This document shows, piece by piece, positions 15,405 through 34,795 of a DNA stretch of 37,782 nucleotides; position 1 is the stretch's first letter, and every line of letters begins with the position of its first letter. The notes below the pieces were generated by a model that was not told the DNA's origin, searched no databases, and worked only from the letters and a program-made list of their open reading frames with translations. The DNA is from Chloroflexota bacterium (lineage in GTDB: Bacteria > Chloroflexota > Anaerolineae > J102): the NCBI GenBank assembly GCA_013151415.1, contig JAADII010000175.1:10352-48133 (forward strand). The letters are read 5' to 3'. Both the position numbers and the translations under genes were made by a program.

Positions 15405-16628
15405 ATGGCTGTATTATCTCCCCCTGTTGGTGTGTCCGAAGACCCCATTCTCAACGCTTTGAAGGGCCAAGACTCCATTACCGCTCATGAATTGTATCAG
15501 ATCATGAGCCGTCCCAACAATGCATTTATTCTGGACGTGCGCCAGCCCGAGGAATTCGAGGCATGGCGCATCGAGGGACGATACACGCCAGAAACCGTCA
15601 ATATACCCTATTTTCAGTTCTTCGATGAGGATAGCGGCGCGCTGGAGCGCGTGCCCAGAAGCGCGGATTTGGTGATTGTGGTTTGTGCACAGGGCGCGGC
15701 AAGTGATCTTGTGGCCTCGCTGTTGGATGACGAAGGCTATCGCGCGGTGAATCTGACCGATGGCATGGAGGCCTGGGGCGATTATTACGCGCGCCATCCC
15801 ATTGTCGAAACCGAATCATATAGCATTTACCAGATCGACCGCCCCGCGCGCGGGTGCCTGAGCCATGTGCTTATTAGCGAAGGCGAGGCCGCGATCATCG
15901 ATCCCCTGCGCCATACCGATCAGTATCTCGAACTCATCGGTGAGAAAGGGGCCGAGCTTCGGCTGCTGCTCGATACGCACGCCCACGCCGATCACATCAG
16001 CGGCGGCTTTCATCTGCAAGAGCAAACCGCCGCGCCTTATTACTTGCATCCCTACGACGGCATCCATCCATTCGACATGCTCCCCGCGCGCAAACCTTAT
16101 CACATGCTGGATGACGGCATGACTTTTCGGGTGGGCGGTTTCACCATCGAGGTGATCCACACGCCGGGGCACACGTTGGGGCAGGTGAATTTCTTGGCCA
16201 CGGCGAGCGATGGCAGCCAATATCTCTTCACGGGCGACAATATCTTCATAGAGAGCTTTGGACGGCCCGATCTGGGTGGCCAGGGCGAGCGTTGGGCGCC
16301 ACTGGTGTATGAGACCATCTTCGAAATTATTAAACAACGCGTTCCCGATGAGGCTCTCCTGTTGCCCGGCCATTACGCTCGAGCGGACGAAGCCAATGAA
16401 GACGGCTCTTTCGCCAGACCTTTGGCCGCGGTGTGGCGCGAAAACAAGGGTCTGCAACACGCAGACCGCGAAGCATTCATTCAGTATGTCCTCAGTCATT
16501 TGCCTTTCATGCCCGAACAATACATCGAGATCAAGCGCGTAAACGCCGGTCTCAGCGAGCCGGACGAAGAGGCGGCAAGCACGCTGGAACTGGGCAAGAA
16601 TATTTGCGCGCTCAGTGACGCTTATTGA
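15405..16628 (+). CDS. Rhodanese-MBL fusion, persulfide-dioxygenase-like
   Basis: The 407-residue protein has an N-terminal rhodanese domain (about 24-132) with catalytic Cys94 in the loop CAQGAAS, then a metallo-beta-lactamase domain (about 138-390). The MBL metal ligands are THAHADH (His192, His194, Asp196, His197), His256 in TPGHT, Asp278 in TGD and His323 in PGHY, a pattern like ETHE1 persulfide dioxygenases. Those iron enzymes use O2 to turn glutathione or other persulfide into sulfite; rhodanese moves sulfane sulfur. Known natural fusions (PRF, CstB) put MBL first; here the order is reversed. AGGAGG before the ATG fixes the start. It is the first gene of the sulfur operon, ten bases before the next gene. 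A plain hydrolase role cannot be excluded. Confidence 0.85.
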   Translation: MAVLSPPVGVSEDPILNALKGQDSITAHELYQIMSRPNNAFILDVRQPEEFEAWRIEGRYTPETVNIPYFQFFDEDSGALERVPRSADLVIVVCAQGAASDLVASLLDDEGYRAVNLTDGMEAWGDYYARHPIVETESYSIYQIDRPARGCLSHVLISEGEAAIIDPLRHTDQYLELIGEKGAELRLLLDTHAHADHISGGFHLQEQTAAPYYLHPYDGIHPFDMLPARKPYHMLDDGMTFRVGGFTIEVIHTPGHTLGQVNFLATASDGSQYLFTGDNIFIESFGRPDLGGQGERWAPLVYETIFEIIKQRVPDEALLLPGHYARADEANEDGSFARPLAAVWRENKGLQHADREAFIQYVLSHLPFMPEQYIEIKRVNAGLSEPDEEAASTLELGKNICALSDAY

Positions 16629-16638
16629 GTGAGGCTTT

Positions 16639-18324
16639 ATGAACTACGGATTCGTCATCGACAATCGCAAATGCATTGGTTGTCACGCCTGTTCGACGGC
16701 CTGCAAAAGCGAGAATGAAGTGCCTTTAGGCGTCTATCGCACCTGGGTCAAGTATGTCGAGACCGGGGTCTACCCGGACGCGCGGCGACATTTCCAGGTG
16801 ACGCGCTGCAACCATTGCGCGAACCCGCCCTGTGTGCGCATTTGCCCGGTCACGGCCATGTATCAGCGGCATGATGGCATCGTGGAGTTCGATCCCGCCA
16901 TCTGCATCGGCTGCAAAGCCTGTATGCAGGCCTGTCCTTACGACGCCATCTACATCGACCCGAACACGCACACCGCGGCCAAGTGCCATTTTTGCGCGCA
17001 TCGCGTCGAGGTGGGGTTGGAGCCGGCCTGCGTGGTGGTGTGCCCCGAACACGCCATTATCTCCGGCGATATGGATGACCCCAACTCGGAGATCAGCCGC
17101 ATCTTGGCCACGCACGAAGTGGTGGTGCGCAAGCCCGAGCAGGGCACCGCGCCCAAGCTTTTTTACATCGAGGGCAACGATGTGGCGCTGCATCCCACGG
17201 CCACCGAACGCGCGCCCAAGACCTTTCTCTGGGCCGATGTGATTCCTCTGCACGGCAAACCCGATCACAATGATCACAACGGCCGCGCCCAACCTCACGC
17301 GCAGCATGAGCTGGCCCTCTGGAACGACAGCCCCGCGCCGGCCGCGCATTCGGGGACGCCCATCCGCACGCCGCAAACGCAGGGCGACCCCGCCAACGGC
17401 CCCATTCAGTTTGGCGGTCGCATGGCCGGGCACATGGTGCAAACCAGTTACAACGCGCAGCATAAAATACCCTGGCATTGGCCCGTTCCCGCTTATCTGG
17501 TGACCAAAGGCATTGCGGCCGGGGTGTTTTTTGTGCTCAGTCTGGGCGTGTTGTTCAATCTTTTCGATTTCGATCCCCTGTTTTTCCTAACGGGCGGATT
17601 CCTGAGCCTGCTTTTCCTCGGCGTGACCACGCTTTTGTTGATCTACGACCTCGACCGACCGGAACGCTTTTTCAGCATTCTCTTCCGGCCGCAGTGGAAG
17701 AGTTGGCTGGCTCGCGGCGCGTTCCTCTTGGTGGGATTCACGGTTGTGGTCGGGTTGTGGTGGCTGGCCGAGTTGGCCGCGTATTTCGGCTTTCTGGCGC
17801 CTTCGGTGGTGCAAATGGCGCGGGTTCCCGCGGCCATCGTCGGCGGCCTGCTCGCGGTGGGAACGGCCATCTACACGGCGTTCCTTTTCGGACAGGCCGA
17901 GGGCCGCGACTTGTGGCAAAGCGGGTTGTTGCCCTTCCATTTGGTGGTGCAAGCGTTCATGGTGGGCAGTGGAACCCTGCTCATCGCGGCCGCGTTCATG
18001 CCTGCGCCCAACGGCCTGGTCTCGACGGCGGTTATCGCATTTGGCCTTTCGCTCATCGTTGATCTCTTTATCACGCTGGTGGGCGAATTTGGCATGCCTC
18101 ACGCCAGCGAAGTGGCCGCGAAGGCCGCGCACGAGATCAGCCACGGCCATTACAAGCGCCATTTCTGGTGGGGCGCAATCCTGGTGGGCCACGTCATCCC
18201 CTTGATTCTGCTGTTCACGGGCCTCCCCCTGGCCGCGGCCCTGGCCGGACTGGCAGCGATCATCGGCCTTTACTTCTACGAATACGCCTTTGTCATGGCG
18301 CCTCAGGAGATACCTAACAGCTAA
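16639..18324 (+). CDS. Fused four-cluster ferredoxin and NrfD-like membrane subunit
   Basis: The 561 residues combine two subunits that are usually separate. Residues 1-190 are a DmsB/PsrB/SoeB-type electron-transfer protein with four cysteine quartets: 12-15-18-22, 57-60-65-69, 89-92-95-99 and 116-119-131-135. Each should bind 4Fe-4S. A His/Pro/Ala-rich hydrophilic link (about 195-285) follows. Residues 285-555 hold about eight transmembrane segments of NrfD/PsrC type, the quinone-reactive anchor. The protein would wire the molybdoenzyme encoded next to the quinone pool. There is no N-terminal signal, which agrees with a cytoplasm-facing complex. GTGAGG precedes the ATG. The fusion fits a PsrBC or SoeBC role; the direction of electron flow cannot be read from sequence. 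Confidence 0.88.
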
Positions 18325-18343
18325 GCCTTTTTGCCTTATCATC

Positions 18344-18374
18344 TTGACATTGTCAACAGATTCATTGTCAACAG
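18344..18374 (+). promoter_or_regulatory. Paired 12-base direct repeats before the molybdoenzyme gene
   Basis: cattgtcaacag occurs at 18348-18359 and again at 18363-18374, a 15-base period. The first copy overlaps the palindrome ttgac-att-gtcaa (18344-18356). The element sits in the 59-base gap just before the start codon. It could be a regulator-binding site or an RNA-level element; nothing else supports a function. Confidence 0.35.
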
Positions 18375-18383
18375 GATCATCGT

Positions 18384-21452
<3,069 letters not shown>

Positions 21453-21580: not shown

Positions 21581-21616
21581 AAAATGCTTGTTTATTTCCG
21601 TTTCAAGGAGAACGTT

Positions 21617-23041
21617 ATGTGGTTTGAAACCATTATCCGTGAAGAGACGGGCTGCGCGGCCTATATGGTCGGTTGCCAACGCACCGGCGAGTGCATGGTG
21701 TTCGACCCCCTGTGGGACATCCAGCCCTATCTCGACATGGCGAAAGAAAAGAAATCGCGAATCCGCTACGTGATCGACTCGCACAGTCATGCGGATCACG
21801 TCTCGGGCGCGCGACGTCTGGCCGAGGCCACGGGCGCGGAGCTGATCCTGCCCGAACTGGCCGACATCACCTACGAGGCCACGCGCGTCAAGCACGGCGA
21901 CATGATCCGCATGGGCGGCGTGGGCATCGAGATCGTGCATGTGCCCGGCCATCGCCCTGAGCAGATCAACGCGCTCATCTACGATTTCCCGCGCGGGGAC
22001 GAACCCTGGTTCATTCTCACTGCCGACTTCGTGCTGGTGGGCGATGTGGCCCGGCCCGACCTGGCCCAGCCCGGTGAGGAGGGCGCGCCTGTGCTCTACG
22101 ACGTGTCCATCCCCCGCTTCTTGAACCTGCCCGATCATGTCGAGGTTTATCCCGGCCATCTTGCCGGCTCGACCTGAGGACGCGTCACCAGTGGCAAGGT
22201 TGTCACGACGGTTGGGTATGAGCGGCGCTACAATCCGGCGCTGAACTTCAAAGATCGGGACGCGTTCGTGGCCTATATGCAGGAGGATCAGCCCGTCAAA
22301 CCGGCCAACATCCTCAACATTGTGGCCACCAATCAGGGACGCTTGCCCCTGACCATGGAAACGCCGGTGGCGAAACCGTTATCGCCGCAACGCGTGGCCG
22401 AACTGATCGAGCAAGGGCACATCATCGTCGATGCGCGCTCGACGGCCGAATTCGGAGCCGAACACATTCGCGGCGCGTTCAATATCCAGCTTTCGAGCAA
22501 GGAGTTCGAGCAACGCGTGGGCTGGATGACGCCCGCCGACGCGCCCATCATCCTGGTGACCAACACAGCCGAAGAGGCCCAGCGAGCCATCTACAACATG
22601 GCCTTCATCGCCCTGGACAGTCGCGTGGCCGGCTATCTGGACGGCGGCATGGACGCATGGATCGAATCAGGCCATCCGGTGGAAAGCGCGCCCCAGATAG
22701 ATATTCATGACCTGTATCATCGCCTGTCCAGCAACGGCCTGCAGGTGCTGGATGTGCGCGACAAGGAGGAGTGGGAAGAGGGACACATCGCCGGCGCTCA
22801 CTTCATGCCCTACACCTCGCTGGTTCCCCAGCTCGATGTGCCGGCCCGCATCGGCGAATTGCCTTTCTCGCCCGACCAAAGCATCGCGGTGGTCTGCGCC
22901 ACAGGCAAGCGTTCGAGCACGGCCGTGAGCGTGTTGCTGCGCGAGGGATATCGTAAGCTTTACAACGTGGTGGGCGGCATGACGGCTTGGAAAGCGGCCG
23001 GTTTGCCCATGGTGGATGAGGACGGCGAGCCGGTGGAATAA
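21617..23041 (+). CDS. cstB: CstB-like persulfide dioxygenase/sulfurtransferase, candidate selenoprotein (in-frame UGA = Sec187)
   Basis: Read through one TGA at 22175-22177, this is a 474-residue protein laid out like Staphylococcus CstB (about 444). The MBL domain (1-187) has ligands SHSHADH (His56, His58, Asp60, His61), His112, Asp137 and His181. A rhodanese-like domain (about 255-352) lacks the Cys (VTNTAEEA). A rhodanese domain (about 362-465) has Cys427 in VVCATGKRSS. The family motif after the last His is PGHxAGSxCG; here it reads PGHLAGST-UGA-GR, so the stop replaces the conserved Cys. Codons after the TGA still encode the family segment TVGYERRYNPAL, with no further stop. AAGGAG precedes the ATG. 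If UGA is not recoded, the gene is a truncated MBL plus an orphan rhodanese with a GTG start at 22268 and no ribosome site. Confidence 0.8.
22175..22177 (+). other. In-frame UGA at a conserved Cys position, candidate selenocysteine codon
   Basis: This TGA is the only stop within the 475-codon frame 21617-23041. It is one base change from a Cys codon and sits at the family Cys. TGA ends many other genes here (recD2, metG, nth-side VOC), so it is not generally reassigned to Trp. Confidence 0.75.
22178..22212 (+). promoter_or_regulatory. Candidate bacterial SECIS element
   Basis: Immediately after the UGA the RNA can fold into a lower stem CGUC/GACG (22183-22186 with 22207-22210), a 4-nt 5' bulge ACCA, an upper stem GUGGC/GUCAC (22191-22195 with 22202-22206, one G-U), and a 6-nt loop AAGGUU (22196-22201). 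The loop starts 18 nt after the UGA. In E. coli fdhF the 6-nt loop AGGUCU starts 17 nt after the UGA. Such an element recruits SelB with Sec-tRNA. Folding was done by eye; no energy was computed. Confidence 0.65.
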
Positions 23042-24336: not shown

Positions 24337-27300
24337 ATGAAGAATCATATGATACAAAGAAACGAGCAGAGCAGTCCCGTCCAAACTTACGAACGCCTCC
24401 ATGCCATTGCACCCCGTTTTTTGAAAAAGGTGCAACATAGCGCACGGACTGCGCATAATGAGGCCGAATTTGAGCGGGATATGAACAACGCCATCGAGGA
24501 GGTGGCTCGTAGTTTGGGCGTCGATTTGCTCTTTCGTCAACAATACACCCTTGCTACCGGACGCGCGGACGCGGTCTACAATCGCTTCGTCATCGAATAT
24601 GAACCTCCGGGCTCGCTGCGCGCGAACTTAGGTCACGGCCACACCAAACACGCGGTGCAACAAGTAAAAGATTATCTCGCGGGCCTGGCCGGAAAAGAAC
24701 GTCATGATCGAGACCGCCTTTTGGGAGTGGCGTTTGACGGTCATTTCTTCATTTTTGTACGGTATCATGCCGGTCATGTCATCGTCGAAGAACCGTTGGT
24801 TGTGACTGCAGGTTCGGTCGAGCGTTTTTTGCGCTCCCTGTTTTCACTTTCATCGGGCCGCGCCTTGATTCCCGAAAACCTGGTGGAGGACTTTGGCCAC
24901 CGAAATCTATTGTCGCACCAGGTGACGCGAGCGCTTTACAATGCATTGGAAGATCGCAGTGACGATTTGACGGCCAAACTTTTCGCCCAATGGCAGCTTT
25001 TTTTCAGCGAGGTGGCCGGATATGAAGCGGCTTCAGGTCGCCTGAAGCACAAAAAACAACTTCAGTCCTTTATGCGAGGCATGGGGTTGAATCCCACTAC
25101 AGTGGACGCGCCTCGTTTTTTCTTTGCCCTCCAGACCTATTTCTCCTTCCTGGTCAAGAATATTGCCCGCCTGGTGCTCCAAGCCTATGCCGGCGGCGCA
25201 TTTGGCGCCACACCGTTAACCACCATCGCCAACCTGCGCGGGGAGGATTTACGCCGCGAACTGGAAAACATGGAGAGCGGCGGCATTTTTCGCGCCCTGA
25301 GATTGAAAAATCTTTTGGAAGGCGATTTCTTTTCCTGGTATCTGAACGCCTGGGATGAGGAAATTGAAGTGGCGCTGCGACAAGTGCTATCACGGTTGGC
25401 CGAATACAATCCTGTGACGGTACAAGATGATCCCTACTCGGCTCGCGACCTGCTCAAAAAGCTTTATCACTATCTGTTGCCGCGCGAGATTCGGCATGAT
25501 CTGGGCGAATTTTATACGCCTGATTGGCTGGCCGAGCGTCTTCTAATGCAATTAGGCGAGCCATTGTTCCAAATGCCTCGGCCCGGAGCCAGGGTGCCCA
25601 CTCCCAACAAACGTTTGCTCGATCCGGCTTGCGGTTCGGGCACGTTCCTGATTCTGGCCGCTCGCGCGCTTAAGGCCAATTGCTTTCAGGCCGGGTTGGC
25701 CGAAGCCGACACGCTGGACGTAATCTTGCGCAACATCGCCGGCATCGACCTAAATCCCCTGGCCGTAATGGCGGCCCGGGTCAACCTCTTGCTCGCCGTG
25801 GCCGATCTGTTGCCCTATCGTCGCGGTGAGGTGGAGCTTCCCATTTACCTGGCCGACAGCATCCTCACGCCAAGCCGGGGCGACAATCTATTCGAGCAAG
25901 ACCGCCGCATACTGGAAACCGCGGTGGGTCGGTTGCCCGTGCCCGATGTGATCGACACTCGGGCCGAGATGGAGAAGCTGACCGATTTGCTCGAGGAATA
26001 TGTGCGAGGGGAATTTGCGCTCGACGCCTTTTTGGCGCGCTGTCGCCAAGACCTCCCCGACGTGGTTGCCAACCCACACAGCGAAGCAGTGCTGCAAGAG
26101 TTATTCGAACGATTGAGCGATTTGCACAGACGGGGGATGGATGGCATTTGGGCGCGGGTGCTCAAGAATGCGTTCATGCCCTTGTTTTTGCAGCCTTTCG
26201 ATTACGTGGTGGGCAATCCGCCCTGGATCAATTGGGAGACGTTACCGCCCGGATACCGGGAACAGGTGGCTCCGCTATGGAAGGAATACGGTCTGTTTCA
26301 ACACAAAGGTTTCGATGCGATATTGGGCAAGGCCAAAGATGATCTTTCCGCGCTGATGACTTATGTGGCGGCCGATCGTTTTTTGAAAGATGGTGGCAAG
26401 CTGGGCTTTGTAATTACCCAAAGCGTGTGGAAGACCGCGGGTGGGGGACAAGGCTTTCGCCGCTTTCGAATCGGCGCGAAAGGCGCACATCTGCGTATAT
26501 TGCATGTGGACGATTTGAGTAGCATCCAGGTCTTCGAGGGCGCGAGCACACGCACCAGCGTGTTTGTTCTGCAAAAGGGCGAAGCCACCCGCTACCCGCT
26601 CCAATACACCTATTGGAAGAAGACGACCCGGGGCAAAAGGCTGGATTATGATAGCACGCTGGAAGAAGTGTTGGAACAAACCAAGCAATTACAATTTCTT
26701 GCTGCTCCGGTAGATACGGATAATCTAACTAGTGCCTGGCTGACAGCGAGGCGAAATGCTATTAGTGCACTGAGAAAAGTCCTTGGCAAGTCACCGTATC
26801 GCGCTAGAGAAGGGGCAAATTCTGGTGGAGCAAATGCAGTTTTCTGGCTTGAGATTCTGGCCGAGCGGCCTGATGGTTTGGTGGTTGTTCGGAACGTGAC
26901 CGAAGGAGCCAAACGCAAGGTAGAGGCCGTAACCGTGGAATTGGAGCCGGATTTGCTTTATCCGCTGTTGCGAGGTCGCGACGTGAAGCGGTGGCAAGCC
27001 GAGCCCAGATACCATTTGTTACTTACCCACCGGGAAGGGGATCGGCTCAATGCCATCCCCGAAGAGGAAATGCAGCGCTATTATCCAAAGACCTGGGCTT
27101 ACCTCAAACGCTTCGAGCAGCCCTTGCGCGAACGCTCCGGCTTCAAGCGCTACTTCACCCGCAAGGATAAAAAGACGGGCCAGATGATCGAAACCGGACC
27201 GTTTTATTCGATATTTAATGTAGGAGACTATACTTTTGCTCGTTGGAAAGTTGCGTGGCCTTGGATATCGAAATCACTTGTCGCAGCCGTGGTCGGCGAA

Positions 27301-27705
27301 TATCATCCGAGACAAATCGTTGTCCCCGAACACAACACTTCTTTTGTTAGTTTTGAAACAATCGAAGAAGCCCATTTTTTCTGTGCTTGCTTCAATTCTA
27401 GCATGGCGAATCTAGCAGCGCTTTCCTCATATTCGGGGGGTGGGGGAGGAATCGCTTCTCCTAAAGTAGTCGAAAGAATACGCGTGCCGAAGTATTTGCC
27501 TCTGGATTCCAATCATCAGCAGCTTGTACAACTTTCTATACACGCGCACGAACTTGCTCCAAAAGCTTATGCGGGTGACAAAGCGGCTCAGGCCGAGCTG
27601 CGAAAGGTGGAGGAGGAAGTGGACCGGGCCGCGGCCGCATTGTGGGGGCTGACCGAACAAGAATTGGCCGACGTGCGGGCGAGCTTGGAGGAATTGAGGG
27701 GGTGA
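24337..27705 (+). CDS. Large N6-adenine DNA methyltransferase with nuclease-like N-terminus (Type IIG/PglX-like)
   Basis: The 1122-residue protein has an N-terminal region (about 40-180) with a PD-(D/E)xK-like block GRADAVYNRFVIEYEPPG (Asp78, Glu87, Glu89), where the usual ExK Lys is absent. A helical section (200-400) follows, then an N6-adenine methylase core: motif I DPACGSGTF (429-437), GIDLNPLAVMAARVNL, and motif IV NPPW (627-630). The C-terminal part should hold the target-recognition domain (about 780-1070). It methylates adenine with SAM and may also cut DNA, as Type IIG enzymes do, or methylate only, as PglX does. The start is uncertain (24337 or 24349; no clear ribosome site). It is the first of seven close-set genes. 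Stretches near 26690-26830 and 27200-27560 are AT-richer than the rest. Confidence 0.88.
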   Translation: MKNHMIQRNEQSSPVQTYERLHAIAPRFLKKVQHSARTAHNEAEFERDMNNAIEEVARSLGVDLLFRQQYTLATGRADAVYNRFVIEYEPPGSLRANLGHGHTKHAVQQVKDYLAGLAGKERHDRDRLLGVAFDGHFFIFVRYHAGHVIVEEPLVVTAGSVERFLRSLFSLSSGRALIPENLVEDFGHRNLLSHQVTRALYNALEDRSDDLTAKLFAQWQLFFSEVAGYEAASGRLKHKKQLQSFMRGMGLNPTTVDAPRFFFALQTYFSFLVKNIARLVLQAYAGGAFGATPLTTIANLRGEDLRRELENMESGGIFRALRLKNLLEGDFFSWYLNAWDEEIEVALRQVLSRLAEYNPVTVQDDPYSARDLLKKLYHYLLPREIRHDLGEFYTPDWLAERLLMQLGEPLFQMPRPGARVPTPNKRLLDPACGSGTFLILAARALKANCFQAGLAEADTLDVILRNIAGIDLNPLAVMAARVNLLLAVADLLPYRRGEVELPIYLADSILTPSRGDNLFEQDRRILETAVGRLPVPDVIDTRAEMEKLTDLLEEYVRGEFALDAFLARCRQDLPDVVANPHSEAVLQELFERLSDLHRRGMDGIWARVLKNAFMPLFLQPFDYVVGNPPWINWETLPPGYREQVAPLWKEYGLFQHKGFDAILGKAKDDLSALMTYVAADRFLKDGGKLGFVITQSVWKTAGGGQGFRRFRIGAKGAHLRILHVDDLSSIQVFEGASTRTSVFVLQKGEATRYPLQYTYWKKTTRGKRLDYDSTLEEVLEQTKQLQFLAAPVDTDNLTSAWLTARRNAISALRKVLGKSPYRAREGANSGGANAVFWLEILAERPDGLVVVRNVTEGAKRKVEAVTVELEPDLLYPLLRGRDVKRWQAEPRYHLLLTHREGDRLNAIPEEEMQRYYPKTWAYLKRFEQPLRERSGFKRYFTRKDKKTGQMIETGPFYSIFNVGDYTFARWKVAWPWISKSLVAAVVGEYHPRQIVVPEHNTSFVSFETIEEAHFFCACFNSSMANLAALSSYSGGGGGIASPKVVERIRVPKYLPLDSNHQQLVQLSIHAHELAPKAYAGDKAAQAELRKVEEEVDRAAAALWGLTEQELADVRASLEELRG

Positions 27706-27710
27706 TAAAA

Positions 27711-28733
27711 ATGACAAGAAATGAGCCCAGATCACAATCCTCCCCAAATCTGTGGATGCGATCCGTGTCTTTTGTTGCACTTCGTGACCTCCTCGCTTTT
27801 ATTGCAGAACGTCCCGAAGGTTTGCGAGCGAAAGATATGGAAGAATTGGCGCGGCAAGAGCGAAAACTACGCACTCGAGATGGCCGTATTCCGTCCAAAA
27901 CAACAGTCTATCATTATCGAACCATCTTGTACCGATTGGGTATTTTGACTTATCACCGAAGACGCTATATAGTGAATCAAAGTAATCCAATTGTTCGCAC
28001 GCTAGTACAGCGTTTGAAACCTGGTTCATCTACTCTCTCCGTTCATGAACGCCGTCTTTTTTCTGAATTGGTAGTGGCTAATGTTGATTGTCGTTACTAT
28101 TTTTTCGACCTTTTCATGCCAAAACAGGACGTTTATGTACTCGAAGATTTCATCGCGCATGGCCGTCGCGTTGCATGGAAAAGTTACACTGATTCCAGTC
28201 GTCGTATGGTGCATCTTCGAAATCTGAATATCGAAAAGCGAGAGCGTTGGCTTCAAACAGAAGATGAATTTCAAGCCATTCTATACGGAATACGATACTG
28301 GGCGCGTAACGAGTTGGAATTCATAGATGAATTGTTCCTCGAGGATTTGGGAGGCGTGATGTTTCCTGTAACACTTACAGGGCCAGTTCCGGCCCCTGAA
28401 ATTACAGTCGCCTTGGCGAAAGCAGTAGATGATTCTCGAGAATGGACGATATTATCTGTACGTAAACTTGTCTACATGTGGGGGCCTCGCTATCATATTT
28501 CTTTGAAACGTATATTTCAAACACTATTATCCATATATAGAGACTACTCTGAGTATATCGTATTGATTCCGACATCAGAAGCATTTGCAACGATAACGGC
28601 TACTTCACCCGGTGCTGGAAACTATCAGCTACGCAGTTATTTGCGTGATTTCGAGGGCCGCTACATCTCACATATCCGTGTCCATCGAAAACTGAAGGAG
28701 GCGCTTCAATGGACGATGCTTACGCCCGCCTAG
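27711..28733 (+). CDS. Winged-helix protein of the defence-like cluster, unknown function
   Basis: The 340-residue product begins with a probable winged-helix DNA-binding region (about 15-90: ALRDLLAFIAERPEGLRA, then TVYHYRTILYRLGIL and the RRRYIVN wing). The rest is not recognised; it has many Tyr, Arg and Glu residues and no nuclease or ATPase motif that I can see. I start at ATG 27711, five bases after the methyltransferase stop, with a GGGGG-type ribosome site inside the end of that gene. Its last 25 bases overlap the ATPase gene, so the two are translationally linked. It is markedly AT-richer than the genes to either side, as are the next two, suggesting separate ancestry within the cluster. 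It may target the ATPase or regulate the operon. Confidence 0.7.
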   Translation: MTRNEPRSQSSPNLWMRSVSFVALRDLLAFIAERPEGLRAKDMEELARQERKLRTRDGRIPSKTTVYHYRTILYRLGILTYHRRRYIVNQSNPIVRTLVQRLKPGSSTLSVHERRLFSELVVANVDCRYYFFDLFMPKQDVYVLEDFIAHGRRVAWKSYTDSSRRMVHLRNLNIEKRERWLQTEDEFQAILYGIRYWARNELEFIDELFLEDLGGVMFPVTLTGPVPAPEITVALAKAVDDSREWTILSVRKLVYMWGPRYHISLKRIFQTLLSIYRDYSEYIVLIPTSEAFATITATSPGAGNYQLRSYLRDFEGRYISHIRVHRKLKEALQWTMLTPA

Positions 28734-29884
28734 AACTATGTTTCAACCCGTTTGAGCCAGCGGCAAGTGGTGTCCCCGTTTCAGGCGCTCTATGGGTTCC
28801 AGAGAGATGGTCTCAACCGCTCCAAAGATTTGTGGAGACTATGGAGGGCACTTCAGGAACGAAAGCTTATGCAATTTCCGGCGAATATGGAAGTGGCAAG
28901 ACTTACTTACTACGCTGGCTAGAGCGGGTGGAGTTGCCGCGACATCGAATTCGTCCCTTTTTCTTTGACAATCCCGGTGTGCGGTTCTACGACCTTGCCA
29001 ATACGCTGCTTCGTCAGATTGGGCGAGAAGAATTCGCAAAATCGCTTTGGGAATTCCTAAATCCTAAGTTACCCGGCTTTCAAGGTTCCCTATTTGAGGA
29101 TTCCTTTCAAGCATGGCTACTGAGTGTTAAAAAACACCGTCGCGAAAAAGAAGCGATCCGAGTCCTGTCCGAAGCAATGCAGACGAAGGGAGTCGCAGAT
29201 GATGAGGAGATTCGTTACAAATTGGGTCGATTAATTGTGGAAACATATGATCGACCTTATTTTGAGTACAAAGATTTCATCGCGGGCCGCCAAGGTTCTC
29301 TCGTGGCGGAAAAGGAGGAAGCGCCTTATTTCGCCACTATTCTTCGATCGCTTCGTCTTATTGGGAGTGCAGAGGCGTTGGCTTTCTTAATGGATGAGTT
29401 TGAAGAAATATCACTCCAAAAACGTTTAACCAAACGTCAGGCTCATGATTATTTGGCTACTATGAAACGACTGATCGGTCTTACCGAACATGAACAATTC
29501 TGGATTATTGTGGCTATGACACCTCAAGCGGCTGAGGTAACGGCAAAACTGGAACCAGCGCTTTGGCAACGGTTTGTCAGCCAGGGTAAACATCAGTTCA
29601 AGATTCCTCCATTGAACGACCAAGAGGCGAGAGAACTGGTTCGCAGACGCCTGAAAAATGCACGGCCTGAAGAAACGACAGCCAAGCCCCTCTTTCCATT
29701 TCCTGAAAACATGATGGAATTGTTTAGAAAAGATATTAAATCATCTCCACGAAAATTGGTCAAAGTATGCAGCCTTGCCATCGCTAAAGCAATTCAAGCA
29801 CCTGAGCAAGTGCAAATACCGTTTGGTGCTGAGTATCTTAGACAGATCCAAAAAGAACTTTATCCCCCTCCTTCAGTCGAGTAG
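28709..29884 (+). CDS. AAA/STAND-like P-loop ATPase
   Basis: The 391-residue protein has Walker A GEYGSGKT (58-65) and Walker B LAFLMDEFEE (Asp229, Glu230), with a sensor-like stretch FWIIVAMTPQA and a C-terminal helical domain, a plan like ORC/Cdc6 and other AAA ATPases that load or move partners on DNA. The N-terminal NPFEP block before the P-loop is common in this type. The start overlaps the upstream gene by 25 bases and has a perfect AAGGAGG site. In the cluster it sits between the winged-helix gene and the PIN gene. It may be the sensing or motor component; similarity to a named system could not be tested. Confidence 0.82.
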   Translation: MDDAYARLELCFNPFEPAASGVPVSGALWVPERWSQPLQRFVETMEGTSGTKAYAISGEYGSGKTYLLRWLERVELPRHRIRPFFFDNPGVRFYDLANTLLRQIGREEFAKSLWEFLNPKLPGFQGSLFEDSFQAWLLSVKKHRREKEAIRVLSEAMQTKGVADDEEIRYKLGRLIVETYDRPYFEYKDFIAGRQGSLVAEKEEAPYFATILRSLRLIGSAEALAFLMDEFEEISLQKRLTKRQAHDYLATMKRLIGLTEHEQFWIIVAMTPQAAEVTAKLEPALWQRFVSQGKHQFKIPPLNDQEARELVRRRLKNARPEETTAKPLFPFPENMMELFRKDIKSSPRKLVKVCSLAIAKAIQAPEQVQIPFGAEYLRQIQKELYPPPSVE

Positions 29885-29905
29885 TCAACGAGGAGCAACC
29901 GAGAG

Positions 29906-30727
29906 ATGAATTCCGATGCCCTCACTTTTCGTCCTACGATATTTCTTGACACAAATGCTTTGCAATTCGTTAGCTCATACCTTCGCCATGCCGAAAAGCT
30001 GGGATTGCCTCCCTTCAAGGGAGTGGGAAGACCAGACTATGAGAAGATTCAGACTACTCTCAGAGAGAAATTACCGAGAGGTGTTGTTGATTCGATCATG
30101 AAAGGTTGTCGTACTCTTGCGTTTCTCCAAGAACTGGCAGGTGACGATGAAATCAGTGGAGATATTTATGCTTCTCGATTAAGTAGGGCAGAGCTTCTTT
30201 TTGGAATCTTGGACGGACAGGCGCATGCTCGTTTAGCGCGAGAAGGTTTATCTTATAGAATGCGTCAACGCTTGAGGGATTTGAGTGAGTTGGTTTCGAG
30301 ATATTTAGAAAGACAAGATTATGAAGACCTACTACAAGAAGTAAATGGATTGTTCGAAATGCTTAAGGAGAAAGATGGGATTCGTATCGAATGGGTTGAG
30401 GAGAGTATTAGCGATTTTTCTTCAATAACTGTATTCTCAGAACTTCTACAAAGCAACGTTTTCCTTGACGTATTGGATTGTTGGATGTACGGCTGCGCCG
30501 TGGCTATACAAGCAGAAAAGATTATTACCTTTGATAATTATTTCAAACGCGTTATCAATCGAATACATAATGCACAAGGCGAAGAAGACTGGCTATATAT
30601 TCAATCTATCATAACAGATGAACTGGAGCGCTTAAATCCTGTGGCATCTCCTGTCACCTTGTCTTTGCCAGCAGCTTTTGATCCGCCTAGGACAGCCCCC
30701 TCCCTTTGGGAAGCAGACCATGCCTAA
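29906..30727 (+). CDS. PIN-domain nuclease-like protein
   Basis: The 273-residue product shows the acidic residues of a PIN fold in order: Asp15 in TIFLDTNALQF, Glu96 in SRAELLFG, Asp188/Asp191 in FLDVLDCWMYG, and Asp210 in IITFDNYF. PIN proteins are metal-dependent RNases or flap-type DNases. Between strands there is a long helical insertion (about 100-180), so it is larger than VapC toxins (about 130 residues) and no antitoxin gene is next to it. GAGGAGC before the ATG supports the start. It overlaps nurA by eight bases. In this cluster it is a candidate effector nuclease. Confidence 0.78.
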   Translation: MNSDALTFRPTIFLDTNALQFVSSYLRHAEKLGLPPFKGVGRPDYEKIQTTLREKLPRGVVDSIMKGCRTLAFLQELAGDDEISGDIYASRLSRAELLFGILDGQAHARLAREGLSYRMRQRLRDLSELVSRYLERQDYEDLLQEVNGLFEMLKEKDGIRIEWVEESISDFSSITVFSELLQSNVFLDVLDCWMYGCAVAIQAEKIITFDNYFKRVINRIHNAQGEEDWLYIQSIITDELERLNPVASPVTLSLPAAFDPPRTAPSLWEADHA

Positions 30728-31838
30728 CCCCTTTCAACCGCTCCAAGGCGCTCTGAACGCCCTGATCGCGAACGCTCAGGTCTTGCCCGCCACTGGCCAG
30801 GCCGTAATCGACATGGTCACGCCTGATCTGGAGGAAATCTATGATCAACGTACGACCGGCCAGGCCGTGATCGAAACGGTGTGGGAAACCGCTCCACGGG
30901 GGCTTTATCGCACCATACGGCCCATTCCGCGCTCCGAAGAACACGCCCTTCGTTACTTCGTGGATGGCTCGGCAAAGACCTATTTCATCGGCACGGTGCT
31001 GGAACAAGACCGCTCGACGCCGGTGCAAGTATCGCAGGTTGGAGCGGCCATGGTGCAACGAGAAGACGACGGTCGTATTCGAGTGGCCAACGCCAAACGA
31101 ACTATCTTGCTCACATTGGAGAAAAGTCAGGTTTCGGAGCAGCTTTGGCGGGAGGTTGAACGGGCCGTCCAGGGCGTGCCGGGTTATCAATTATGCGACA
31201 GCGCTACCAACAACAAGTACGCCGACGCCATGAATTTGCAAGAAGCCCGACCGCGGGGCGCCCATCGCGCCAACTGGCACATGCGTGAAATGGAAGTCGA
31301 ACTTGCTCGCGTCATCCCTCGCGATGGGGACGCCTGGCTGGTCATCGACGGTAGTTTAGGCAACGAATTCGAAACCTGGCGCGGCGCGCCACTCATCGGA
31401 GTCGCGAAAACTTTTCGTCGAGATAGCCGTTTCGAGTTAGGCAGTGGTCCTCGAGCCAAAAAACTCAACTTGTTTGGCCTACTCAAAGACTTGCAAGAAA
31501 ACCAGCGCACCATTGTGTTTCCTCGCAGCAATGAGGGCAAAATCGTGTTTTGGTACGTGCGCATTCGACCTCAAAAGGGACTGGACTATCCCCTGATGGG
31601 AGTTGTCAAAGTGGAAATGCCCAATCCGGATCGAGAACCGGTGGATAGCGCTTTGATCGACCGCATCAGCGGCTGGCTCATTGCCGAACGCACCGTAACG
31701 CCCTACGGCCGAGATAGTCGTTGGCACGCGCACTTATATCCGATCTATATCGCCGAGCGCGTCATACGTTCGCAATTCTACTCCGAAGCCGTGCTGAAAT
31801 CAGGCATTCGCTGGCCGTTTCAGCTTGCTACTCCATGA
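30720..31838 (+). CDS. nurA: NurA-domain nuclease
   Basis: The 372-residue protein fits NurA, the RNase-H-fold nuclease that works with HerA on DNA ends. The motifs are VDGS (Asp82) in RYFVDGSAKTYF, Glu190 in WHMREMEVELARVI, IDGSL (Asp210), the block LIGVAKTFRRD, and the C-terminal HLYPIYIAERV with His338 and Tyr340. I start at ATG 30720, which overlaps the PIN stop by eight bases and has GGGAAG upstream. The HerA-like gene follows after 11 bases, confirming the pair. In archaea the pair resects breaks; in bacterial islands it is found in antiviral systems. Confidence 0.85.
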   Translation: MPNPFQPLQGALNALIANAQVLPATGQAVIDMVTPDLEEIYDQRTTGQAVIETVWETAPRGLYRTIRPIPRSEEHALRYFVDGSAKTYFIGTVLEQDRSTPVQVSQVGAAMVQREDDGRIRVANAKRTILLTLEKSQVSEQLWREVERAVQGVPGYQLCDSATNNKYADAMNLQEARPRGAHRANWHMREMEVELARVIPRDGDAWLVIDGSLGNEFETWRGAPLIGVAKTFRRDSRFELGSGPRAKKLNLFGLLKDLQENQRTIVFPRSNEGKIVFWYVRIRPQKGLDYPLMGVVKVEMPNPDREPVDSALIDRISGWLIAERTVTPYGRDSRWHAHLYPIYIAERVIRSQFYSEAVLKSGIRWPFQLATP

Positions 31839-31849
31839 GGTGTTCGATA

Positions 31850-33535
31850 ATGGCAAAACAACCAGGCAAACCCATCGGACGCGGCTCCGCCACCGAGCGC
31901 GATCCAAACACCGCAGAGAAATTCAAATTCTGGATTCGGCCCGGGCAAATGGTTAACCCCTTCGACATCATCGCGGCCGAACATTTTCCCGCGCAGGCCG
32001 GAGCGGAATCCAGCTACACTTTTGGCCTGGTGACCAACATTCAGCACATCACCGATGCAGCCGGACATTTGGCCAATTTCATCTCCAATGACTTTGGCGA
32101 AGAGGTGGAGGAAACGCCCCAAACCCCGCGCCAGGGAACCAATGTGGCCGAAGCCACCGTGCTTTCCAACAGCGCTGACATTTACATGCCGATTCAAAAT
32201 GAAGCGCGAGTCTATTTCGCGGACGAAGACAAGATTCATCTGGCTTTGGGTATCGACGGCATACCTCCGCAACGCCGCGTGCCGGCCGGCCTCATTCAGA
32301 TGAGCAACGGGACTCAAGCTGTGGCTTACCTCGACCGTGATTTTGTGCTCGGTCCCGAGGCGGGCCATGTCAACATTTCTGGCATTTCCGGCCTGGCCAC
32401 AAAAACCTCGTATGCTATGTTCCTCATTCAGTCATTGCTACAAAGCAGCGATCATGAAAACATTGCCGTCATCTTGTTGAATGTAAAGTACGATGACCTG
32501 TTGTCTATCCACGAACCGCGTAAGTTGCAGGACAAAGAGCATCAGATATGGCAAAGGTTGGGATTAAAGCCAGAGCCCTGGCCGGAGGAGCGCGTTCACT
32601 ATCTACTACCCAATGGCAAGCAGACGCATACTACCGGCCGGCCTAACTCCTTCGCGGACCCACCACCGCCTCATCAAGTCTATGCTTACGCGCTGCGCGA
32701 ATCGGCCAATAAGCTCGATCTGCTCTTCTCCAATATTCCCGATCCAAACGGAACTATTAGCTCCGTCATCGGCGAAATCACGACAGGAATCGAGAATCGA
32801 GAGCGGGCCTGGCAAGCCGTTCACACATGGGATGATTTGTTGAGCAAACCGCCGTTGGTGCAACAGCGCATTCCCCAAAGATTCCGCAATATCCACGCTT
32901 CCAGTGTGGGCCGTTTTCTCCGGCTTTTGCGCCGCGTGGTCAAGACGCGACAATCCGGCATTTTTGTGTCTCAACTCTCAACACGTATGACGACCATCGA
33001 AAAGGAAATCGGCAATATCAAAGGAGGACACACCTATGTGGTGGACATTGCTCGACTCACCCAGGAGGAACAGACTCTTGTGTTCGGGGACGTGTTGCGC
33101 ACCGTCTATGGTTTGTACTCCGGCGAAACGTTGCCTCTCGATGACTATCAGCCGCCTGCAAAGGTCATCGTCTTTGTGGACGAATTGAACAAATACGCTC
33201 CGGCGCGAGGCCAAGGTGATCGCTCTCCCATCCTCGCACAAGTTTTGGACGTCGCCGAACGCGGACGTTCGTTTGGCATTATTCTTTTCTCAGCCCAACA
33301 GTTTCTCAGTGCGGTGCACGATCGCGTGACAGGGAATTCAGCAACCAAAGTGCTGGGGCGCACTGACAGCGCGGAAATCAACGCAGGCAACTACCGATTT
33401 CTTGCTCAGGACATCAAGTATCATTTAACGCGATTGGAAAAAGGGGAATTGATCTTATCCCATCCCATTTATCGCCAACCGGTGAAGATTTCATTTCCCC
33501 CGCCCCCTTATCGACAGGGAAGGGCAAAGCATTAA
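31850..33535 (+). CDS. herA: HerA-like hexameric translocase ATPase with altered P-loop
   Basis: The 562-residue protein has an N-terminal HAS-type barrel (about 25-165) and a RecA/FtsK-like ATPase. The Walker A position reads GISGLATKT (178-186), where Thr replaces the last Gly (GxxxxTKT in place of GxxxxGKT). Walker B is VFVDELNKYAPA (Asp444, Glu445). The motif FSAQQFLSAVHDRVTGNS and the C-terminal Arg-containing KVLGRTDSAEI fit HerA. It would pump DNA and drive the NurA nuclease. I start at 31850 with GAGGTG eight bases upstream; the frame is open from 31721 but inside nurA. The altered P-loop could be a lineage variant or a loss of ATP binding. Confidence 0.85.
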   Translation: MAKQPGKPIGRGSATERDPNTAEKFKFWIRPGQMVNPFDIIAAEHFPAQAGAESSYTFGLVTNIQHITDAAGHLANFISNDFGEEVEETPQTPRQGTNVAEATVLSNSADIYMPIQNEARVYFADEDKIHLALGIDGIPPQRRVPAGLIQMSNGTQAVAYLDRDFVLGPEAGHVNISGISGLATKTSYAMFLIQSLLQSSDHENIAVILLNVKYDDLLSIHEPRKLQDKEHQIWQRLGLKPEPWPEERVHYLLPNGKQTHTTGRPNSFADPPPPHQVYAYALRESANKLDLLFSNIPDPNGTISSVIGEITTGIENRERAWQAVHTWDDLLSKPPLVQQRIPQRFRNIHASSVGRFLRLLRRVVKTRQSGIFVSQLSTRMTTIEKEIGNIKGGHTYVVDIARLTQEEQTLVFGDVLRTVYGLYSGETLPLDDYQPPAKVIVFVDELNKYAPARGQGDRSPILAQVLDVAERGRSFGIILFSAQQFLSAVHDRVTGNSATKVLGRTDSAEINAGNYRFLAQDIKYHLTRLEKGELILSHPIYRQPVKISFPPPPYRQGRAKH

Positions 33536-33538
33536 CTC

Positions 33539-34795
33539 ATGTCTGGTTCATTGCCATCATTGCCGACCGGCTTCGAGTATCGCCTGGATTTATCCCGGCA
33601 TGTAACGCCGCGTCTCTTGCGTGACCAGGCCATCCATCGTTGGTTCTATTTTCCGCACAGTTTCTCGCCGCAACTGGTCCATATTCTCTTGGAAAAATGG
33701 GATGTTCCCTCCGGTGCATGGGTGCTGGACCCATTCGTTGGCGCCGGAACCACACTGTTGGCCGCTCGCGAGAAAGGGATTAATGCTCTGGGTATCGACC
33801 TCTCGCCTCTTTCGATTTTCGTGAGTAGGGCAAAAACGCGTCAATATGACTCGACGGAAATTTGCAAGGGTCTTGAATATGTTGAAAAAGCGATGCGAGA
33901 AGAACGGATGGTCGCCATAGATCGCCCGTCGCGACTTCAACGGGCCTTCACCGACGCTGAATACGCGATGCTGGCCCGAATTCGCCAGGCTATTGCGGAA
34001 CTTGCTCAATCCTCCCGCGACTTTCTTCTCCTGGCTTTGTTGCGCACTCAACGGCAATTCTCGCGAGCCGTTCCCGATGGCGGCTGGTTCCGATGGCGCG
34101 AATTGCCATCTTCAGAACAAGCAATTTGGCCAACATTTAGAAGAACGGTGGAGGAAATGCTCGGCGATCTGGCGGACACGCGACCTTACAAGGGGCTATG
34201 GACGGCGATCCGGCACGACGCACGCGCGCTCACTTCCTTGGCGACCAGGCATCCTTTTCTATTATCCGGTTGCCAGGCCATCATCACCTCGCCTCCCTAT
34301 CCCAATCGTCATGATTATAGTCGAATTTTTCAGATCGAATTATTGACGTTGGGACTGCAAGAACAAGATATCTTTGCCTTGCGCCATCATTCCCTCCGTT
34401 CCAACGTGGAAGCCCGAGCGCCCGAATACGCTCTTCCTCCTTTCGATTCTCCTCCTCAACTTATCGAAACCCTCAACCGCTTACCCGAAGATGCGGATCG
34501 TCGTATCGAACCCATGTTGCGGGGCTATTTCGAAGACATGAACGCCGTTCTTTACGCTACTTATCAAGCACTATCTCCCGGCGGTCACCTGGCCCTCGTT
34601 GTCGGCAATGTCCGTCATGCAGGCGTCATGGTTCCTGTGGACGTCATCTTACTCGAGATGGGTATGCGTCTGGGCTATCGGCCAGAAACATCCTGGGTGG
34701 CGCGCTTACGGGGTAACAGTGCCCAACAAATGGGTAGGTATGGCCGGATCCCGGCTCGAGAAAGTGTGGTCATCTTGCGAAAAGGCGACCATTAA
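33539..34795 (+). CDS. Second DNA methyltransferase (motif order I-IV, SPPY type)
   Basis: The 418-residue enzyme has motif I DPFVGAGTT (64-72), GIDLSPLS just after it, and catalytic motif IV TSPPY (250-254) in ITSPPYPNRHDY. SPPY is common among N4-cytosine methyltransferases, though some N6-adenine enzymes use it too, so the modified base is uncertain. About 180 residues between motifs I and IV are helical and may include target recognition. A late strand SPGGHLALVVGNVRH is motif V/VI-like. It begins three bases after the HerA-like stop and ends the cluster. With the first methyltransferase it gives the system two modification enzymes of different classes. Confidence 0.88.
   Translation: MSGSLPSLPTGFEYRLDLSRHVTPRLLRDQAIHRWFYFPHSFSPQLVHILLEKWDVPSGAWVLDPFVGAGTTLLAAREKGINALGIDLSPLSIFVSRAKTRQYDSTEICKGLEYVEKAMREERMVAIDRPSRLQRAFTDAEYAMLARIRQAIAELAQSSRDFLLLALLRTQRQFSRAVPDGGWFRWRELPSSEQAIWPTFRRTVEEMLGDLADTRPYKGLWTAIRHDARALTSLATRHPFLLSGCQAIITSPPYPNRHDYSRIFQIELLTLGLQEQDIFALRHHSLRSNVEARAPEYALPPFDSPPQLIETLNRLPEDADRRIEPMLRGYFEDMNAVLYATYQALSPGGHLALVVGNVRHAGVMVPVDVILLEMGMRLGYRPETSWVARLRGNSAQQMGRYGRIPARESVVILRKGDH

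Follow-up and report, generated by a model that had tools for sequence, protein, structure and literature searches.

The window, i.e., the whole stretch of 37,782 nt that was analysed, has a reading frame for a persulfide dioxygenase-rhodanese protein similar to CstB of Staphylococcus aureus, and this frame contains a single TGA (Table 1). The question raised by the locus is whether the TGA ends a gene or specifies selenocysteine (Sec), as had been proposed in a preliminary description. Translation with TGA read as Sec gives 474 residues followed by TAA, with one in-frame TGA at codon 187, in agreement with the 475-codon frame first described. The standard code splits the frame into a 197-aa ORF, which opens at an in-frame ATG upstream (position 21584), and a 257-aa ORF. 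From 21617 the protein starts with MW(F/L)E, as do the orthologues; the window has MWFE.

Table 1. Positions in the window of the putative selenoprotein gene, its parts and the adjoining genes.
Feature	Position	Strand	Remarks
Predicted Sec-containing CstB-like persulfide dioxygenase-rhodanese gene	21617..23041	+	474 aa, TAA stop
Metallo-beta-lactamase (persulfide dioxygenase) domain	21617..22174	+	Pfam; H56, H58, D60, H112, D137, H181 invariant
TGA codon 187, proposed Sec	22175..22177	+	TGA in 17/17 Sec-type sequences, Cys in 40/40 distant homologues
bSECIS-type hairpin GUGGCA-AGGU-UGUCAC	22191..22206	+	17/17 paired, two compensated pairs; fixed synonymous codons 192–195
First rhodanese-like domain (pseudo-rhodanese)	22385..22675, limits approximate	+	Pfam; without active-site Cys
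C-terminal rhodanese domain, residues 364–461	22706..22999	+	Pfam; invariant Cys427
Rhodanese-MBL protein, second persulfide dioxygenase-like gene	15405..16628	+	Blh-like domain order
Fused 4Fe-4S (ferredoxin) and NrfD protein, PsrB/PsrC or SoeB/SoeC type	16639..18324	+
Molybdopterin oxidoreductase, PsrA/PhsA/SoeA type, 1022 aa	18384..21452	+	directly upstream of the Sec gene

The domain order given at first, a metallo-beta-lactamase (MBL) domain before the TGA and two rhodanese domains after it, is also that found by Pfam, and the segment that follows the TGA is conserved. The metal site has the HxHxDH, H, D, H pattern of CstB-type enzymes, and there are two rhodanese-like domains with the active-site Cys in the last. 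The six metal-site residues and Cys427 are invariant across the Sec and Cys forms. The roles of their counterparts as iron ligands or second-sphere residues are taken from the persulfide dioxygenase (PDO) of Acidithiobacillus caldus (PMC6060420). Taken strictly, the GS-x-C-G motif is without its Cys, the codon at that point being a TGA (predicted Sec); the protein is therefore filed here as a Sec variant of the CstB type. The best sequence matches among solved structures are 3tp9 and 3r2u. An AlphaFold2 model has a pLDDT of 89.4, with low confidence in the loop that carries residue 187, and it superimposes on 3tp9 with a Z of 41.4 over 452 residues and on 3r2u with a Z of 37.8 over 325. The next structural matches are ETHE1, BpPRF and other persulfide dioxygenases.

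Residue 187 aligns with the Cys of GSPCG in S. aureus CstB (3r2u) and of GSACG in 3tp9. The expected counterpart was a functional Cys near residue 201 of CstB, and the alignment gives exactly Cys201 in native numbering (chain position 225, an offset of 24). This numbering comes from a phmmer alignment together with the structural alignment, in which model residue 1 is residue 1 of the entry and position 25 of the chain. A scan of 84,980 species genomes yielded seven orthologues with 66–81% identity, all from metagenome assemblies of Chloroflexota/Anaerolineae and all with TGA at codon 187. Further orthologues, with identities down to 52% and exactly one TGA each, are present among 396 genomes of the window's class. 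There are 17 distinct Sec-type sequences including that of the window; the others are 52–82% identical to it and come from several Anaerolineae families. All 17 read STUGR at the site and have no other stop. A further 40 homologues, taken from the class and phylum (32–47% identity), have TGC or TGT without exception. Residue 187 is thus Cys or Sec in every Sec and Cys form aligned. The preliminary description had stated that the TGA replaces the Cys of GS-x-C-G, and had named Cys in homologues and TGA in other genomes as the checks to be made; the statement and both checks are borne out by these alignments.

A tree of the Sec and Cys forms places the Sec sequences together on one side of a branch with an SH-aLRT of 98. 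If the tree is rooted among the Cys forms, a single change from Cys to Sec would account for it. The window sequence groups with sequences of another family (f35), and no Sec form was found in 19 other genomes of the window's own family. Seven of these have distant Cys homologues only, and in the others nothing matched at the threshold applied. The position among f35 sequences and the lack of a Sec form in these related genomes suggest that the Sec gene of the window was acquired by horizontal transfer. A Sec form (L075) and a Cys form (L086) occur together in one genome (G679), possibly as isozymes that are exchanged in a selenium-dependent manner.

The search of the same genome for selA, selB, selC and selD that had been proposed as a check found all four: the tRNA-Sec (77 bits, anticodon TCA), SelA (558 bits), SelB (331 bits, C-terminal part included) and SelD (364 bits). 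The SelD gene of this genome (L050, contig C192:8086–9021) itself has one in-frame TGA, within CAGUASK, so that SelD too is a predicted selenoprotein; a hairpin with GGUUC as its loop, GGCGCA-GGUUC-UGCGUC, comes after this codon. A UGA in CAGUASK is the usual Sec site of Sec-type SelD. The UGA-containing SelD gene is an internal positive control for Sec decoding in this organism. Of the 17 distinct genomes with a Sec form, 15 have at least one of two markers, a tRNA-Sec that scores over the cut-off and a SelA match, the latter being only partial in G506. Neither was found in G066 and G679, which are metagenome assemblies, G679 being 78% complete and G066 of unknown completeness. A tRNA-Sec is also present in 15 of the 16 genomes found with the Cys form only, so the Sec machinery is necessary and does not discriminate between the two forms. 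Matches to Rfam RF01852 near the 47-bit cut-off are not to be trusted alone, because two control genomes, those of Caulobacter vibrioides and Thermotoga maritima, pass it; to our knowledge, Sec decoding is not expected in either.

Downstream of the UGA is a short hairpin whose apical loop, AGGU, starts 19 nt past the UGA in the window. A published model of the bacterial SECIS has an apical loop of 3–9 nt whose first two positions include a G, a stem of 4–16 bp, 16–37 nt between UGA and loop, and a minimum free energy of -7.5 kcal/mol or lower (PMC13188914). The window hairpin agrees with this model in spacing, loop G and stem length. The 20-nt hairpin alone has an energy of -6.7 kcal/mol in the window and of -6.7 to -10.9 kcal/mol among the orthologues, most of which are below the -7.5 kcal/mol limit. 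The 42 nt that follow the UGA in the window fold with an energy of -12.0 kcal/mol. For the window alone, plain folding of a 71-nt segment that includes the TGA and the sequence past it gave no significant result (z-score -0.54). In a single-sequence scan, approximately 16% of the window's TGA triplets have a comparable hairpin after them; a hairpin in one sequence therefore proves nothing, and it is the comparative evidence that counts.

A comparison of the Sec-type sequences shows that each has a stem of 6–7 bp and a loop of AGGU, AGGC or AGUU, 19 nt from the UGA. Standard pairs are present in all 102 pair cells (17 sequences, six pairs), a percentage that is biased upward because the structure was derived from the same sequences. 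Compensated pairs are better evidence, yet come here from two sequences, L076 and L083. Both sides have changed at two of the six pairs, one from U-A to C-G and the other from G-U/G-C to A-U and C-G. No shuffle in 500 had a compensated-pair score as high, and no slid version of the structure equalled it. Synonymous constraint was assessed over the first 240 codons in 14 Sec sequences, and only 10 of the 195 scorable codons are invariant. Four of these, codons 192–195, are consecutive and cover the hairpin's 5' arm and its loop; there is no other such run of four. The hairpin is absent from all Cys homologues examined. This putative SECIS-type element, conserved and covarying, adds independent evidence for Sec decoding.

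A UGA conserved together with a full-length downstream protein, the Sec machinery and the covarying hairpin argue strongly that the gene encodes a selenoprotein, and we consider it highly probable that UGA 187 is decoded as Sec in a CstB-type enzyme. SelB with Sec-tRNA-Sec would bind the hairpin with the AGGU loop and insert Sec at UGA 187. Judged by its family, the MBL domain would bind Fe(II) by H56, H112 and D137 and oxidise a low-molecular-weight persulfide to sulfite. Cys427 of the C-terminal rhodanese domain may join the sulfite and a second persulfide to form thiosulfate, or may hand on sulfane sulfur; alternatively, the sulfite could pass to the neighbouring SoeABC-like complex. Residue 187 lies near the iron site, six positions beyond the second-sphere H181, and Sec at this place might take up sulfane sulfur and relay it from one active site to the other in the form of a selenenyl sulfide. 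The relay is the weakest step of the scheme, and we give it about an even chance. With selenium, the exchange would be faster and over-oxidation by O2 could be reversed.

A variant of the selenoprotein explanation, compatible with Sec decoding, has Sec187 as a protective or regulatory redox switch, e.g., one that bonds to glutathione or to another Cys in a selenenyl sulfide, and not as a carrier in turnover. It is favoured by the fact that over-oxidation of selenium is reversible. There is also a precedent in the PDO of A. caldus, where essential surface cysteines have been proposed to protect against over-oxidation by way of disulfide formation and glutathionylation (PMC6060420). However, the absolute conservation of Cys or Sec in the fused family is at least equally consistent with a role in turnover, and a switch function is put forward only tentatively.

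The TGA could instead be a true stop, with a short MBL protein before it and a separate, internally started rhodanese protein after it. A start codon for the latter is available (GTG at 22268), and single-domain persulfide dioxygenases are known. Against this, the segment GRVTSGKVVTTVGYERR immediately after the TGA continues the MBL part and is conserved in both Sec and Cys forms. The codon at the site is moreover TGA in 17 of 17 Sec-type sequences and TAA or TAG in none, and the codons of the hairpin arm and loop are synonymously frozen. We consider two separate proteins very improbable.

The probability is similarly slight that the UGA is translated but read as Trp or Cys by suppression. Near-cognate read-through of UGA does occur in bacteria. 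Here, however, Cys is the residue at this position in every homologue, the Sec genes are all present, a covarying SECIS-type hairpin stands at the right spacing, and TGA is, as the preliminary description had noted, a normal stop elsewhere: it terminates 15 of the 30 genes checked in the window. An altered general code was considered and is ruled out by the same count.

That the gene is a pseudogene, or that the TGA is a sequencing or assembly error or a strain-specific mutation, might be thought of for a draft genome of 197 contigs, but is ruled out for practical purposes by the conservation of the TGA in 17 distinct sequences from independent assemblies, with identities down to 52% and no other stop, and by a frame past the TGA that is intact with many synonymous changes. 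A chance nonsense mutation, against which the preliminary description had argued, is excluded by the recurrence of the TGA. The open downstream frame does not suffice alone, since frames opened by a lone TGA are not rare in the window, where 23 have no fewer than 100 and 60 open codons to their two sides. Support for the selenoprotein thus comes from homology and conservation and not from openness of the frame.

The putative selenoprotein gene is adjacent to genes of sulfur and molybdoenzyme type. The proteins encoded at 16639–21452 have their best matches to PsrA/PhsA and TtrB/NrfD types, under all curated NCBIfam cut-offs, and no SoeA model is among the matches. In nine distinct orthologous loci the Sec gene is preceded by the molybdoenzyme gene, with approximately 70–79% identity. 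The molybdoenzyme gene also adjoins one Cys form (L057); it was not found in several other Sec loci within the locus DNA examined. A sulfite-oxidising (SoeABC-like) or a polysulfide- or thiosulfate-handling role would fit this cluster, since a CstB-type enzyme makes sulfite from persulfide. The PsrABC/SoeABC-like set may be a subfamily not yet described that is linked to the CstB-type enzymes of Chloroflexota. At the head of the cluster is the rhodanese-MBL protein, which has the reverse domain order and is without a Cys after the last His. Positions 24337–34795 contain large genes that look, by the ORF listing alone, like those of a DNA methyltransferase, of ATPases and of another methyltransferase, and may represent a defence island.

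The proposal of a new selenoprotein stands when set against the literature, with Sec decoding supported by the conserved TGA. A catalogue published in 2026, which covers 119 families and subfamilies of prokaryotic selenoproteins, includes rhodanese-type proteins and a Sec sulfide:quinone reductase, and the metallo-beta-lactamase fold and persulfide dioxygenase are absent from it (PMC13188914). Nor do these terms occur in the deep-Sep, GOS and 2022 review papers. A search of the literature found no MBL-fold or CstB selenoprotein, although an unseen report or database annotation is possible, and NCBIfam has no model that fits the window protein above its cut-off. These proteins may represent a new selenoprotein family, an MBL-fold non-haem-iron dioxygenase of Anaerolineae in which selenium carries sulfane sulfur in aerobic sulfide oxidation; for this description as a whole we find the prospects evenly balanced. 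It would extend the known uses of Sec to a persulfide- and sulfide-oxidising enzyme with an MBL fold. It also points to the family-wide Cys (Cys201 in CstB) as a functionally critical chalcogen, because bacteria seldom exchange a purely structural Cys for Sec. Standard gene finders take the UGA as a stop and would report a truncated enzyme in this uncultured group, so the capacity of these Chloroflexota for sulfide oxidation is misjudged. The Sec and Cys forms in G679 are a natural pair of one enzyme type, by which the gain of selenium over sulfur in persulfide chemistry is directly testable.

Other bacterial selenoproteins that handle sulfur are the rhodanese selenoproteins (forms 1–5, TsoB) and the Sec-subtype type III sulfide:quinone reductase; these are catalogued under rhodanese or flavoprotein families, and none is an MBL-fold persulfide dioxygenase (PMC13188914). 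ETHE1, the single-domain PDOs and BpPRF have an MBL domain with the iron-site residues in common with the window protein and are without the pseudo-rhodanese middle domain. The alignments obtained for the single-domain PDOs match as far as the last His and stop before GS-x-C-G, so that this motif appears to be special to the fused MBL-rhodanese family. The closest solved structure is 3tp9, an MBL-rhodanese protein of Alicyclobacillus acidocaldarius with 36% identity, which differs in having Cys (GSACG) where Sec is predicted here. S. aureus CstB (3r2u; 29% identity) has the same domain order, metal-site residues, GS-x-C/U-G motif and rhodanese Cys. It differs at the one position, where its Cys201, which is presumably functional and close to the iron site, corresponds to the predicted Sec187, and also in its surroundings: its gene is part of a cst operon, whereas the window gene adjoins a molybdoenzyme operon.
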